From Limnohabitans sp. Rim28 (GTDB lineage: Bacteria; Pseudomonadota; Gammaproteobacteria; Burkholderiales; Burkholderiaceae_C): a DNA stretch of 64,000 nt. Each line of letters begins with the position of its first letter. Within the stretch, counting starts at the first letter, position 1. The notes beneath the pieces are model-generated. The model saw nothing but the letters and a program-made list of their open reading frames with translations, made no database searches and was not told where the DNA came from. The translations under genes were made by a program, and so were the position numbers. Shown here in pieces: positions 46,967 through 51,831 of this stretch. The stretch spans positions 62,001 through 126,000 of the forward strand of contig NZ_ALKN02000001.1 of assembly GCF_000293865.2 (NCBI RefSeq), given 5' to 3'.

Positions 46967-47902
46967 ATGTCCGATCTGATCTTGCACCACTACCCGACCT
47001 CGCCTTTTGCTGAAAAGGTTCGGTTGATACTGGGCCACAAGCAACTGGCCTGGAAGAGCGTATTCATCCCGATGGTCATGCCCAAGCCTGACTTGACGGC
47101 GCTCACGGGCGGTTACCGCAAAACGCCGGTGCTGCAGATCGGCGCGGACATCTACTGCGACACCGCCCTGATTGGCGATGTGTTGGAGCACATCGCCCCC
47201 ACGCCTACGCTCTACCCCGAAGCCGTCCAAGGCGCGGCGCGCATCGTGGCGCATTGGGCCGACAGCGCCTTGTTCACGGCTTCGATGGCCTACAACTTCC
47301 AACCTGCGGGCGTGGCCCAAGTGTTTGCGGGCGTACCCGCTGAAGGCGTGCAGGCTTTTGTGGCCGACCGCACCGCCATGCGCGGTGGCGCAGCGCGCAT
47401 GGCATCCTCGGACGCCACCAGCACTTACAAGAGCTATCTGCGCCGCATCGACAGCATGCTGCACCGTCAAGATTTTTTGTTTGGCAGCCAGCCTTGCGTG
47501 GCCGACTTTGCGGTGTATCACCCGATTTGGTTCACGCAAGAGCGCACACCCGCTTTGGCGGGCATTTTGGATGCGACGCCCGAAATTCAACGCTGGATGG
47601 CCCGCATGAAGGCCATCGGCCATGGCACTGTCGGCAAATGCAGCGCTGAAGAAGCCTTGCAAACCGCCCACAGCGCAACGCCTGTCGCCGTTCAAGCCGA
47701 GGTCTTTCAAGACGATCACGGGATCGCCCTGGGTCACCAGGTCGTGATCGCGGCTGACAACTTTGGGATGGAGCCCACCCAAGGCGAGCTGGTTGCGGCA
47801 ACAAGTACCCGATACACCTTGCGCCGCAGCGACGACCGCGCGGGCACCTGCCATGTTCACTTCCCCCGCGTGGGCTTCACATTGAAAAAGGTTTCCCCAT
47901 GA
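46967..47902 (+). CDS. Glutathione S-transferase-like protein with extra C-terminal domain
   Basis: A 311-residue protein. Residues 1-80 are a thioredoxin-fold GST N-terminal domain (HHYPTSPFAEKVRLILG with Ser in the position of the catalytic residue, KTPVLQIGADIYCDTALI), residues about 95-215 are the helical GST C-terminal domain (HRQDFLFGSQPCVADFAVYH is the conserved N-capping region), and about 85 further residues (225-311) form a small beta-rich domain with HHF-type strands such as HVHFPRVGFTLKK. The appended domain is found on a subset of GST-like proteins and has no assigned role. It sits between the MDR reductase and an SDR and overlaps the latter by ATGA. Confidence 0.87.
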   Translation: MSDLILHHYPTSPFAEKVRLILGHKQLAWKSVFIPMVMPKPDLTALTGGYRKTPVLQIGADIYCDTALIGDVLEHIAPTPTLYPEAVQGAARIVAHWADSALFTASMAYNFQPAGVAQVFAGVPAEGVQAFVADRTAMRGGAARMASSDATSTYKSYLRRIDSMLHRQDFLFGSQPCVADFAVYHPIWFTQERTPALAGILDATPEIQRWMARMKAIGHGTVGKCSAEEALQTAHSATPVAVQAEVFQDDHGIALGHQVVIAADNFGMEPTQGELVAATSTRYTLRRSDDRAGTCHVHFPRVGFTLKKVSP

Positions 47903-48804
47903 TCGAAAACTTCAAAGGCAAAACCGCGGTCCTGACCGGTGCAGGTTCAGGCTTTGGCCTGGAATGCGCCCGCATTGGTGCCAAGCTGGGCATGAACCTG
48001 GTGTTGGTGGATGTGCAGCAAGACGCGTTGGACAAGGCCGAGGCCGAAATGACCGCCCAAGGCGCTCAGGTGCTGGCTCGCAAGGTGGACGTGTCGAACG
48101 CCCAAGCCATGGCGCAACTGGCGGCCGATGTCAAAGCACGCTTTGGCGCACCGCACTTGGTGTTCAACAACGCGGGCGTGGGGGCAGGGGGCTTGGTGTG
48201 GGAAAACTCCGTGGCCGACTGGGAGTGGGTGTTGGGTGTCAACCTCTGGGGCGTGGTGCACGGTGTGCGCCTGTTCACCCCGATGATGCTGGAGGCCGCC
48301 AAGGCCGACCCTGCTTATCGCGGCCACATCGTCAACACCGCCAGCATGGCCGGTTTGCTCACACCGCCCAACATGGGCATCTACAACGTCAGCAAACACG
48401 CTGTGGTGTCGTTGACCGAAACCCTTTACCAAGACCTGCACCTGGTCAGCGACCAGGTCAGCGCCAGCGTGCTGTGCCCTTATTTTGTGCCCACCGGCAT
48501 CAGCCAAAGCCACCGCAACCGCCCAGCTGACCTGGCTGCCGACAAGCCCACCGCCAGCCAATTGATTGGGCAAGCGCAGAGCGACAAAGCGGTTGGCAGC
48601 GGCAAAGTCTCGGCCGCCGACGTGGCGCAAAAAGTGTTTGACGCGGTGGCGGCTGACCAGTTCTACATCTACAGCCACCCTCAGGCCCTGGGCAACGTGC
48701 AAAGCCGCATGGAAGCCATCGTGATGGGCAACAACCCGCCTGATCCGTTTGCCGCCCGCCCTGATGTTGGTGAGGGCCTCAGAAAAGCGCTTCGTTCGGC
48801 CTGA
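47899..48804 (+). CDS. Short-chain dehydrogenase/reductase
   Basis: A 301-residue classical SDR. The cofactor site is LTGAGSGFGLECARIGAKL (about 13-31), NNAGVGAGG is at about 91-99, and the active site has Ser in VNTASMAGLLT (about 151-161) and Tyr-x-x-x-Lys in IYNVSKHAVVSL (about 165-176). An extension after residue 200 (HRNRPADLAADKPTASQLI) gives the longer length typical of SDRs that act on steroid- or fatty-alcohol-like substrates, although a substrate cannot be named. It is the last gene of the catabolic block and ends before a hairpin. Confidence 0.92.
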   Translation: MIENFKGKTAVLTGAGSGFGLECARIGAKLGMNLVLVDVQQDALDKAEAEMTAQGAQVLARKVDVSNAQAMAQLAADVKARFGAPHLVFNNAGVGAGGLVWENSVADWEWVLGVNLWGVVHGVRLFTPMMLEAAKADPAYRGHIVNTASMAGLLTPPNMGIYNVSKHAVVSLTETLYQDLHLVSDQVSASVLCPYFVPTGISQSHRNRPADLAADKPTASQLIGQAQSDKAVGSGKVSAADVAQKVFDAVAADQFYIYSHPQALGNVQSRMEAIVMGNNPPDPFAARPDVGEGLRKALRSA

Positions 48805-48820
48805 TCCTGCTCTGAGGCAC

Positions 48821-48861
48821 AAGGCCACAGGCGCCTTGCGTTTCCAACGCGGGGCCTTTTT
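48821..48861 (+). terminator. Probable terminator at the end of the catabolic block
   Basis: AAGGCC (48821-48826) can pair with GGCCTT (48853-48858), with an inner hairpin GCGTT/AACGC (48838-48850), followed by TTT. Its 3' edge meets the stop codon of the convergent lipoprotein gene, so it would end plus-strand transcription there. Confidence 0.5.
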
Positions 48862-49252
48862 ACTTGTGGAAATGGCCCTCGAAACAGTGACGTACCTCGT
48901 GGCCCAGAGCCACATGGTTGGTGCGTGTCCCGGTCACGATCACACATTCTTTACTGGCCACATGCCAGACGGCACACGCCACGGGTGGCGTGATGTAAGC
49001 CTGCTCGCGGCCCATGCCAATGGATTGGGCACAGAACTGGGCCACATCCTCCCGAACCTCCCAGCGCAGTTTGACTTCTTTCATCATCCGCTGTTCTGCA
49101 GATTTGGGTGTGAAGGTTTCATATTCAGAGGCTGGGATGACACCGCCACCCATGACTTGGCATCCTGACAATGTGAGCATCAAGAAAGCGACCGCCAAGC
49201 CCTTCAAGGTCATGATAAAAGTTATGCAATATTTGCTTATGGCGAATTTCAT
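48860..49252 (-). CDS. Small lipoprotein with HExxH motif (putative metallopeptidase-like)
   Basis: A 130-residue exported protein I cannot place in a named family. It has a signal peptide with lipobox LSGC and lipidated Cys31, then a mature part with conserved-looking cysteines (Cys74, Cys93, Cys103, Cys123) and a C-terminal LGHEVRHCFEGHFH where His118-Glu-x-x-His122 is a zinc-binding HExxH, followed by Glu125 and His127/His129. Such motifs usually mark a zinc metallopeptidase, but the protein is small and activity is unproven. The ATG at 49252 is preferred since it has a GGAG site 6 nt upstream; an internal ATG at 49213 would give a minimal signal peptide. It is divergent from tex across an AT-rich region. 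Confidence 0.8.
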   Translation of the reverse strand: MKFAISKYCITFIMTLKGLAVAFLMLTLSGCQVMGGGVIPASEYETFTPKSAEQRMMKEVKLRWEVREDVAQFCAQSIGMGREQAYITPPVACAVWHVASKECVIVTGTRTNHVALGHEVRHCFEGHFHK

Positions 49253-49464
49253 GGTTAACTCCATCAATTGCCAATTTTAACAGTTTGTTATGACTTTAAA
49301 TGGGGAAAGTTACATTGAAAATTGTTTTTTTAAATTTTGCAGTTGTTTGTTTGTATTGTTGATTCGACACGGATCGGGGCTGTCGTGCATGCATCTGGAG
49401 ACAGGATCAGCGCGCAATGCATGTGGCAAACTCGTTGTTTTTTATTCCCGCAGTGACCTGAAAC

Positions 49465-51831
49465 ATGCAGAAAATCCTGGCCCAACTGGCCACTGAAATC
49501 CGAATTCGCCCTGATCAGGTCAAGACAGCAGTAGAGTTGCTGGACAGCGGCGCCACGGTCCCGTTCATCGCCCGTTACCGCAAAGAAGTGACCGATGGAC
49601 TGGACGACATCCAGTTGCGTGAGCTGGAGTCGCGCTTGGGGTACTTGCGCGAGCTGGAAGAACGCCGCGCCGCTGTGATCAAAAGCATCACCGAACAGGG
49701 CAAGATGACGTCCGAATTGCTGGCAGCCATTGACGCCGCGCCCACCAAACAAGAGCTGGAAGACTTGTATTTGCCCTTCAAGCCCAAGCGCCGTACCAAG
49801 GGCATGATTGCCCGCGAAGCCGGTCTGGAGCCGCTGGCCGACAAACTGTTTGCCGACCCGCGCCTGGACCCGCATGCCGAAGCCGCCGCCTTTGTGCTGG
49901 CGGCAGGCGCGATGGAAGGTACCGACTTCACCACCACCGCCGCTGTGCTGGACGGTGTGCGCGACCTGCTGAGCGAGCGCTGGGCCGAAGACGCATCACT
50001 GGTGCAAGCCCTGCGCGAATGGCTGTGGAACGAGGGCCTTTTCAAAAGCAAGCTGGCCGATGGCAAGGACGAAAACAACGCCGATGTGTCCAAGTTCCGA
50101 GATTACTTTGACTACGACGAGCCGATGGGTCGCGTGCCCAGCCACCGCGCTTTGGCGGTGTTTCGCGGTCGTGCACTCGAAATGCTCGACGCCAAGCTGG
50201 TGCTGCCCGTCGAGCCTGAGCCCGGCAAACCGAGCATCGCCGAAGGCAAGATCGCGCTGCACCTGGGCTGGAGCCATGCGGCCCGCCCCTCGGACGACCT
50301 GATCCGCAAATGCGTGGCCTGGACTTGGCGCGTGAAGTTGAGCCTGTCCACCGAGCGCGATTTGTTCACCCGTTTGCGCGAAGAGGCCGAAAAAGTCGCC
50401 ATCAAGGTGTTTGCCGACAACTTGCGCGACTTGCTGTTGGCCGCGCCCGCTGGCCCGCGCGTGGTCATGGGCCTGGACCCGGGCATCCGCACCGGCGTGA
50501 AAGTCGCGGTGGTCGACGCCACCGGCAAACTGGTCGACACGGCCACCGTCTACCCCCATGAGCCGCGCAAGGATTGGGAGGGTTCACTCTTCACACTGGC
50601 CAAGCTGTGTGAAAAGCACCAGGTCAACCTGATCGCCATTGGCAACGGCACAGCCAGCCGTGAGACCGACAAACTGGCGGGCGACCTGATCAAGCAATTG
50701 GCCAAGTTGCGCGAGGGCGTGGAGATTCAGAAGGTGGTGGTCAGCGAGGCGGGCGCTTCGGTGTACTCGGCCAGTGAATTCGCCTCTCAGGAGATGCCCG
50801 ATGTGGACGTGAGCCTGCGCGGCGCGGCATCCATTGCCCGTCGCTTGCAAGACCCGCTGTCAGAGTTGGTCAAGATCGACCCCAAAGCGATCGGCGTGGG
50901 CCAGTACCAGCACGATGTGAACCAAAGCGAGCTGGCCAAAACCCTGGACGCGGTGGTGGAAGACTGCGTGAACTCGGTGGGCGTCGACCTCAACACCGCC
51001 AGCGTGCCCTTGCTCACCCGCGTGTCGGGCTTGTCGGGCAGCGTGGCCAAGGCTGTGGTGCGCTGGCGCGATGCCAACGGCGTGTTCAAGTCCCGCCAAG
51101 ACTTGCTCAAAGTGACGGGTTTGGGTGCCAAGACCTTTGAACAAAGTGCGGGCTTTTTGCGCATTCGCGGCGGCGACAACCCGTTGGACATGACGGGCGT
51201 TCACCCCGAAACCTACCCGGTGGTCGAGCAAATCATCGTCAAAACCGCCAAGCCCATTCAGGACATCATGGGCCGCTCGGATGTGCTCAAAACGCTCAAG
51301 CCTGAGCTGTTTGTGAACGATAAATTCGGTGCCATCACCATCAAAGACATTCTGGGTGAGCTGGAAAAACCGGGCCGCGACCCGCGACCCGACTTCAAAG
51401 TGGCTCGCTTGGCCGACGGCGTGGAAGACATCAAAGACCTGAAAGAAGGCATGACCTTGGAGGGCACCGTGAGCAACGTGGCCCAGTTTGGCGCGTTTGT
51501 GGACCTGGGCGTGCACCAGGACGGCTTGGTCCATGTGAGCCAGCTGGCCAACAAGTTTGTGAGCGACGCCCGCGAAGTGGTCAAGACCGGCGACATCGTC
51601 AAGGTCAAGGTGCTTGAAGTCGACGTGGCCCGCAAGCGCATCAGCCTGACCATGAAGCTCGATGCTGCGCCCACAAGGCGGGATGGCCCCAGAGACAACA
51701 AGTTTGAAGGGGCAGGGCGCGAGCAGCGCCAGCGAGGCGGTGGCAGTTACACCTCGCCCCCCACAGCTTCGACCTCATCGGGCTCGGCCATGGCCAGTGC
51801 TTTTGCCAAGTTACAAGACCTCAAGAAGTAA
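49465..51831 (+). CDS. tex: Tex family RNA-binding transcription accessory protein
   Basis: Tex proteins bind RNA and nucleic acids through an S1 domain, are widely conserved, and affect transcription and expression of virulence or stress genes. The 788-residue protein has N-terminal helical domains (VPFIARYRKEVTDGLDDIQL, about 32-51), a YqgF/RNase H-like core starting VVMGLDPGIRTGVKVAVVD near 333, tandem helix-hairpin-helix motifs (VSGLSGSVAKAVVRW and LLKVTGLGAKTFEQ, about 519-557), and the S1 domain at about 658-728 (GTVSNVAQFGAFVDLGVHQDGLVHVSQL). The C-terminal 55 residues are Ser/Gly/Arg-rich and disordered. Confidence 0.96.
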   Translation: MQKILAQLATEIRIRPDQVKTAVELLDSGATVPFIARYRKEVTDGLDDIQLRELESRLGYLRELEERRAAVIKSITEQGKMTSELLAAIDAAPTKQELEDLYLPFKPKRRTKGMIAREAGLEPLADKLFADPRLDPHAEAAAFVLAAGAMEGTDFTTTAAVLDGVRDLLSERWAEDASLVQALREWLWNEGLFKSKLADGKDENNADVSKFRDYFDYDEPMGRVPSHRALAVFRGRALEMLDAKLVLPVEPEPGKPSIAEGKIALHLGWSHAARPSDDLIRKCVAWTWRVKLSLSTERDLFTRLREEAEKVAIKVFADNLRDLLLAAPAGPRVVMGLDPGIRTGVKVAVVDATGKLVDTATVYPHEPRKDWEGSLFTLAKLCEKHQVNLIAIGNGTASRETDKLAGDLIKQLAKLREGVEIQKVVVSEAGASVYSASEFASQEMPDVDVSLRGAASIARRLQDPLSELVKIDPKAIGVGQYQHDVNQSELAKTLDAVVEDCVNSVGVDLNTASVPLLTRVSGLSGSVAKAVVRWRDANGVFKSRQDLLKVTGLGAKTFEQSAGFLRIRGGDNPLDMTGVHPETYPVVEQIIVKTAKPIQDIMGRSDVLKTLKPELFVNDKFGAITIKDILGELEKPGRDPRPDFKVARLADGVEDIKDLKEGMTLEGTVSNVAQFGAFVDLGVHQDGLVHVSQLANKFVSDAREVVKTGDIVKVKVLEVDVARKRISLTMKLDAAPTRRDGPRDNKFEGAGREQRQRGGGSYTSPPTASTSSGSAMASAFAKLQDLKK

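Follow-up and report, generated by a model that had tools for sequence, protein, structure and literature searches.

The window, as we call the whole stretch of 64,000 nucleotides that was analysed, contains a short gene on the minus strand, flanked by an SDR-type dehydrogenase gene and by tex (Table 1). An earlier note on this DNA had described a 130-residue open reading frame with a lipobox and a C-terminal HExxH, naming no strand, and that frame proves to be real. A hydrophobic signal runs into the lipobox L-S-G-C31, the combination by which a bacterial lipoprotein (signal peptidase II) is recognised, and the chain ends in LGHEVRHCFEGHFHK, with a single Lys after H129. The four cysteines counted in the mature part are indeed there, namely C74, C93, C103 and C123. 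So are the further His residues, although the conserved one among them, H129, had not been singled out. A search for a sigma-70-like promoter from 48780 to 49480 gave none.

Table 1. Positions of the lipoprotein gene, its parts and its neighbours in the window, with examples from other loci
Feature	Coordinates	Strand	Remark
Lipoprotein CDS, 130 aa	48860..49252	minus	ATG at 49252, stop codon 48860-48862; relatives found
Signal peptide, residues 1-30	49163..49252	minus	By eye; helix 7-28 in the model
Lipobox LSGC, residues 28-31 (L28-S29-G30-C31)	49160..49171	minus	C31 is the presumed lipid-bearing Cys; next residue Q
C74, conserved cysteine	49031..49033	minus	From the alignment; kept in motif-less paralogues
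C93, conserved cysteine	48974..48976	minus	From the alignment; kept in motif-less paralogues
C103, nearly invariant cysteine	48944..48946	minus	From the alignment; kept in motif-less paralogues
HEVRH, residues 118-122	48887..48901	minus	Conserved in relatives; on model helix 113-125
C123, conserved cysteine immediately after H122	48884..48886	minus	From the alignment; by eye in 17 paralogues
H129, putative third zinc ligand	48866..48868	minus	Aligned in 84/84 alignment rows
SDR-type dehydrogenase gene	47899..48804	plus	Convergent with the lipoprotein gene; name from sequence reading alone
tex gene	49465..51831	plus	Divergent from the lipoprotein gene; name from sequence reading alone
Motif-less/intact twin pair (example)	L007:1022-1366 and L007:1363-1770
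tRNA-like leaders (alignment A6, 27 sites; examples)	L150:4653-4748; L156:4658-4768; L176:4618-4713

The dN/dS ratio of the lipoprotein gene (NG86) lies between 0.06 and 0.30 in the 22 of 25 comparisons that yielded a value, dS being saturated in many, and these ratios indicate that the gene is under purifying selection. Identity to the window copy runs from 48 to 88% for the lipoprotein, from 79 to 96% for the SDR protein (24 comparisons) and from 84 to 96% for tex (25). On these figures the lipoprotein is changing faster than its SDR and tex neighbours.

How widespread is the gene? In the window's genus, which takes in Limnohabitans, 48 of the 90 genomes (34 of the 56 good ones) have at least one match to the family, motif-less copies included, and often several. 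The other 42 (22 of the good ones) have no match, and the gene is therefore dispensable. A family-wide draw gave matches in 5 of 299 genomes, four of them from this genus. Draws at the level of the order (4 of 399, two of this genus) and of the class (2 of 369, one being the window's own genome) scored the best 11-12 candidates per genome, so that the gene may be less rare outside the genus than these counts suggest. When the genome collection was scanned with a motif-seeded pattern, 66 loci came back, with Hydrogenophaga, Polynucleobacter, Oxalobacteraceae and Methylococcales records among them.

The position of the gene recurs. In 37 of 67 members checked tex lies within 1.5 kb, and in 33 of these 37 the SDR gene does as well. 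The window copy, too, sits between SDR and tex genes as in many relatives, and a prophage remnant is ruled out on that ground. When 30 loci were chosen by the SDR gene (L441-L470), the lipoprotein gene was present in 25, eight of which had two copies; three were empty, SDR and tex being 110-243 nt apart, and two had no tex in view. The SDR-tex interval (48805-49464 in the window, and its counterparts in L441-L470) is thus a variable slot that may be empty or hold one or two copies of the gene, and its flanks are far more conserved than the gene inside.

Conservation of the motif and paralogues that lack it

HExxH occurs 151,223 times in TrEMBL against 80,000 occurrences expected by chance, according to the excerpt of PMC3650047 at hand, so that the motif alone is weak evidence. 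Our first scan of viral contigs was seeded largely by the motif itself, and conservation in that set, including the invariance of R121, is biased. A second scan was therefore made with a pattern outside the motif. For this, an alignment of 17 phage-type members was cut before the motif (A4), and the pattern was taken from the ACSF region, which picks phage-type members. The best 80 of 104 confirmed stretches on viral contigs gave 41 distinct sequences. Among these, HExxHC-x5-H is present in all 40 complete distinct relatives, and the 41st runs off its contig end. Two bacterial relatives found by profile without any pattern, L194 (HEVGHCFYFSYH) and L195 (HELYHCTNGNFH), also have the motif. Because of purifying selection and the 40/40 retention outside the seed, these sequences argue that the HExxH motif is not a product of chance. 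The earlier note had proposed that the motif be dismissed if homologues failed to keep the His and Glu residues; intact relatives do keep them, and one set of paralogues, taken up below, has lost them.

In an alignment of 84 rows (A5), C74, C93, H118, E119, H122, C123 and H129 are invariant; nine rows were not found by the motif, and the remainder are biased for H118, E119 and H122, but not for H129. R121, invariant in the motif-seeded set, is no longer so here. The third His stands seven residues past H122 (nine in L070 and L075), and in 127 of 142 distinct C-x5-H members it is followed by no residue (56) or by one (71). The note had thought the protein odd for being too small for familiar metallopeptidase folds. 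This needs qualifying, as metallopeptidases on a minimal scaffold, the 'minigluzincins', are described in the excerpted part of PMC4559962. The real oddity is that the chain stops at the third putative ligand.

Seventeen paralogues do without the motif. E119 and H129 are absent from every one of them, H118 and H122 are each kept in 4 of 17, and the cysteines are retained. The set was reached from 16 by dropping L052_2852, which is cut by a contig end, and adding L055_3945 and L213_1057 by hand. Strict expressions for C74, C93 and C103 score 16 of 17, the miss being L008 (CTILT for CTIVT), which keeps its cysteines by eye. C123 was demanded by the search expression, and its 17/17 rests on reading the sequences by eye. 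That E119 and H129 are missing together while the cysteines remain would be expected if the first two residues shared one function and the cysteines had another.

In twelve of the 17 cases an intact copy follows immediately downstream on the same strand (in L006, L007, L055, L058, L059, L060, L061, L064, L196, L197, L198 and L213). The remaining five carry a [GAS]NA[VI]RxC helix; no intact copy was seen next to any of them. In L055 and L056 a gene for a family-3 solute-binding protein (PF00497) follows the intact copy, and in L056 an open reading frame with 12 YDG domains lies upstream. At L060:4564-8920 a motif-less and intact pair, together with a third motif-bearing fragment, is found near a gene for a DncV-like nucleotidyltransferase and a patatin gene, a set that we take to resemble CBASS defence.

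Viral relatives and a tRNA-like leader

The viral contigs that carry the family gene resemble tailed phages. A PHROG scan of 20 recurrent neighbour proteins gave several with phage functions and many without a function. Among the neighbours are phrog_262, a DNA polymerase (E 1e-199), and phrog_94, a head maturation protease (E 9.7e-50). Another is a transcription regulator, named DsbA by Pfam (PF11126, E 2e-6), and one more resembles IF-1 (PF01176, E 7e-17). The gene for the last lies downstream of the family gene in phage operons (L177:5783-6067; cluster 8, 21 viral loci), and near it is one for an uncharacterised protein of 140-200 aa, present in 28 loci. A viral contig also carries a tmRNA (L182:8601-9056), for which Rfam gives overlapping matches to permuted tmRNA (137 bits) and betaproteobacterial tmRNA (119 bits).

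In a tree of 145 rows the window protein groups with chromosomal copies of Limnohabitans. One branch, whose support of 93/81 is not strong, separates 45 bacterial-contig rows (the window included) and 4 viral rows from 78 viral and 18 bacterial-contig rows. The two sides of the family differ in their N-termini as well. A regular expression for the lipobox, which is crude, finds it in 32 of 36 distinct relatives from L017-L054 (the four missed carry near-lipoboxes), in 4 of 26 other bacterial-contig relatives and in 5 of 82 viral ones. L017-L054 are labelled the SDR-tex group by number, and L033 and L050 showed neither neighbour. Because the viral versions mostly have no lipobox, they are probably soluble in the periplasm.

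Many of the phage operons begin with a tRNA-like element. We find it in 37 of 92 distinct phage upstream regions; none of 65 bacterial upstream regions has it, and of 157 random windows one does. It consists of an acceptor stem, a T-arm and a long variable arm, with no normal anticodon loop, and most of the 37 leaders encode an ACCA end. In 35 of the 37 the acceptor stem ends 20-35 nt ahead of the chosen start codon, and by eye a TTGAC/TATAAT-like (sigma-70-type) promoter stands just upstream of the leader. RNAalifold folds 27 leaders into 26 pairs, 13 of which show pair-keeping changes on both sides. Rfam reported no leader at the gathering score in 10 loci; when the threshold was relaxed, a tRNA match of 26.9 bits (gathering 29) appeared for one leader and a tRNA-Sec match of 20.2 bits for another. 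With ARAGORN, 8 of 80 loci have a tRNA call no more than 300 bp away. The excerpt of PMC9004378 treats phage tRNAs and a two-piece tmRNA, and not a leader like the one here.

Is the leader a part of the family gene? A scan with the leader pattern finds it also without that gene, and this idea was rejected. In 80 loci, from at least 120 matching stretches, the leader was followed by the family gene in 53, by an end within 350 nt in 11 and by another gene in 16. Eight of these 16 leaders stand, by eye, directly before a gene that elsewhere follows the family gene, and the other eight are a variant leader before unrelated genes. Since the leader heads the operon with or without the family gene, it belongs to the operon.

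Predicted fold and proposed function

AlphaFold2 models the full protein with pLDDT 90.5 and pTM 0.70, and the mature part with 88.9 and 0.78. The model runs strand-helix-helix-strand-strand-helix (E61-66, H70-77, H82-87, E92-97, E102-107, H113-125). As the earlier note had proposed to check by prediction, the two His of the motif do share a helix in the model, the last one, which also bears E119; the third conserved ligand candidate, H129, comes just beyond it, after G126.

Foldseek found no match in the PDB at E <= 0.001. Its top PDB rows are mostly small GTPases, and the top VIA rows are mostly glyoxalase-type folds with Z under 3. Among the VIA rows, the only ones aligned up to the last residue are PprI, IrrE, MMP-11 and M61 in the first search (4 of 30) and PprI, IrrE twice and MMP-11 in the second (4 of 27), all of them chains that we take to be zincins. 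These rows have Z of 2.0-2.7 only (2.2-2.7 for the IrrE/PprI chains), were singled out after the fact and are weak. Absence of a family from the PDB fold lists was not counted against that family. In a viral structure library, BFVD A0A6J5LHA2 from an uncultured Caudovirales phage matches with a Foldseek E of 4.7e-8 and 28% identity over 116 columns; this structural match is to an uncharacterised protein and gives no function. SprT-like and PolyVal-metallopeptidase names appear in that library at E 0.66-1.8, which is not significant.

What might such a protein do? From what is directly observed, that is the gene, its lipobox motif, the conservation, the helix of the model and the joint absence of E119 and H129 in the paralogues, the protein is probably a zinc enzyme of miniature size that belongs to an uncharacterised family. 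The reading that we favour, with somewhat more confidence than doubt, is a minimal zinc metallopeptidase, or a closely similar zinc hydrolase. It would be exported through Sec, lipidated at C31 and anchored in the envelope facing the periplasm. A single zinc would be held by H118 and H122 on their common helix and by the C-terminal H129, and E119 would serve as the general base that activates water for hydrolysis. Two disulfides among C74, C93, C103 and C123 may hold the small fold together. The likeliest substrate would be a periplasmic or outer-membrane protein. Lipoproteins whose residue after the lipid-bearing Cys is not Asp are as a rule sorted to the outer membrane; as that residue is not Asp here, the lipoprotein is probably on the outer membrane.

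The earlier note had been content with either a membrane-anchored miniature metallopeptidase or a zinc-binding envelope protein; the motif on which it drew is kept, but no confident match to a solved metallopeptidase fold has come with it. Could the three His carry zinc without catalysis, for structure, storage or delivery? Such an envelope protein would suit a chain that has no C-terminal subdomain to form a substrate cleft. But three-His zinc binding has no need of E119, and all 40 relatives that were found through a pattern outside the motif possess it; none of the 17 motif-less paralogues has E119 or H129, while their cysteines stay. We therefore consider a non-catalytic role unlikely. A zinc hydrolase of the same architecture might instead act on a non-protein target such as peptidoglycan or a lipid headgroup, as its location in the envelope would allow. 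The window protein is without any Pfam domain, and a HExxH with a general-base Glu most often belongs to a peptidase, which makes this alternative distinctly improbable. A structural disulfide protein in which the motif is no more than an accident is hardly credible: 17 paralogues in related bacteria do live without the motif, but its 40/40 retention outside the seed and the absence of E119 and H129 together, not singly, speak against this view.

A metallopeptidase or similar hydrolase might also be placed in a conflict between phage and host, and here we can offer only a speculation, which we think quite unlikely to be right in all its parts. In this scenario a new family of mini-zincins with a terminal ligand would be present on both sides. 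The phage's soluble periplasmic version would alter the host envelope, hypothetically by acting on a receptor or a lysis-limiting protein, for example; the host's lipid-anchored version would be kept at a fixed chromosomal site; and the motif-less twins immediately upstream of intact copies would be inhibitors or decoys.

If the enzymatic reading is true, the protein would represent a new family of exported mini-metallopeptidases, unnamed in Pfam and NCBIfam and of 'unknown function' in PHROG, that about half of the genomes in a freshwater genus possess and many viral contigs carry. With its C-terminal subdomain absent, it would help to show, on a small scale, how far a zincin can be reduced, and the intact and motif-less twins would form a natural set for dissecting function.

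Comparison with known families

Named families offer little. Pfam gave the window protein no family at E <= 10 (its filters drop most matches above about 0.1), SprT-like (PF10263) and peptidase M78/IrrE (PF06114) included, and none over the cut-off for eight relatives; NCBIfam had no family for the window protein. A PDB search by sequence returned nothing, and another a single viral capsid chain at E 1; tblastn of phage and plasmid records gave no significant result. No paper on such a family was found in the literature by title and start of abstract, and in the main text of PMC12195039, on the first Limnohabitans phages, the words 'peptidase', 'protease' and 'lipoprotein' each occur zero times. 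By profile, the nearest named family is PHROG 27783, which matches residues 94-130 of the window protein at E 7.4e-4 (default cut-off 0.001) and all eight relatives at E <= 1, from 4.4e-8 for the phage relative L121 to 0.099 for L070, four of them below 0.001. Most of these E-values are modest; the family is a phage one of 88 positions, has no assigned function and is without the lipoprotein N-terminus.

Among zinc peptidases, the protein agrees with zincins in the broad sense in having HExxH on one predicted helix, and it has a conserved third ligand as a candidate only. With minigluzincins, SprT-like proteins and M78 (IrrE) it shares a small scaffold, minigluzincins being about 100 residues long, and, judged from the sequences, an edge strand and a loop before the HExxH helix. 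Those families place their third ligand well past the motif helix, in a segment for which the lipoprotein has no counterpart, and no profile match is significant. A profile set for SprT (10 of 12 fetched loci gave a row; L307 and L308 came from matches below the cut-off) resembles it over the motif region only (17 columns, P 0.029; global mode P 0.41), as does one for M78 (again 10 of 12; 23 columns, P 0.011; global mode P 0.94). With no family match and a likeness limited to the motif region, membership in either is not supported. In gluzincins and minigluzincins the third ligand is a Glu in the helix after the motif helix; here the model has no helix after 113-125 and only five residues remain, so that this assignment falls. 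Peptide deformylase takes a Cys on a strand as its third ligand. C93 could play that part here, but it is kept in the motif-less paralogues whereas H129 is absent, and this disfavours a deformylase-like site. For the paralogues themselves, the excerpt of PMC3650047 offers a precedent, and a precedent only, in CLCA and other HExxH families, some members of which have substituted sites and have lost catalytic residues.

Metzincins, as excerpted from PMC8235301, are defined by HExxHxxGxxH/D and a Met-turn. The spacing here is HExxHxxxGxxH and no segment is left for a Met-turn, and membership is ruled out. In the Mtz/Tim pair of Listeria, which the same excerpt describes, a secreted zinc protease of phage origin cleaves a lipoprotein, and the cells are then more sensitive to lysis. 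Mtz has the metzincin signature and the Met-turn, while the lipoprotein chain ends at or just after its third His; both are secreted, carry HExxH with a third His beyond a Gly and have a connection with phages. As a precedent for the idea, and not as evidence, Mtz/Tim of Listeria appears to be the nearest functional analogue that we found.
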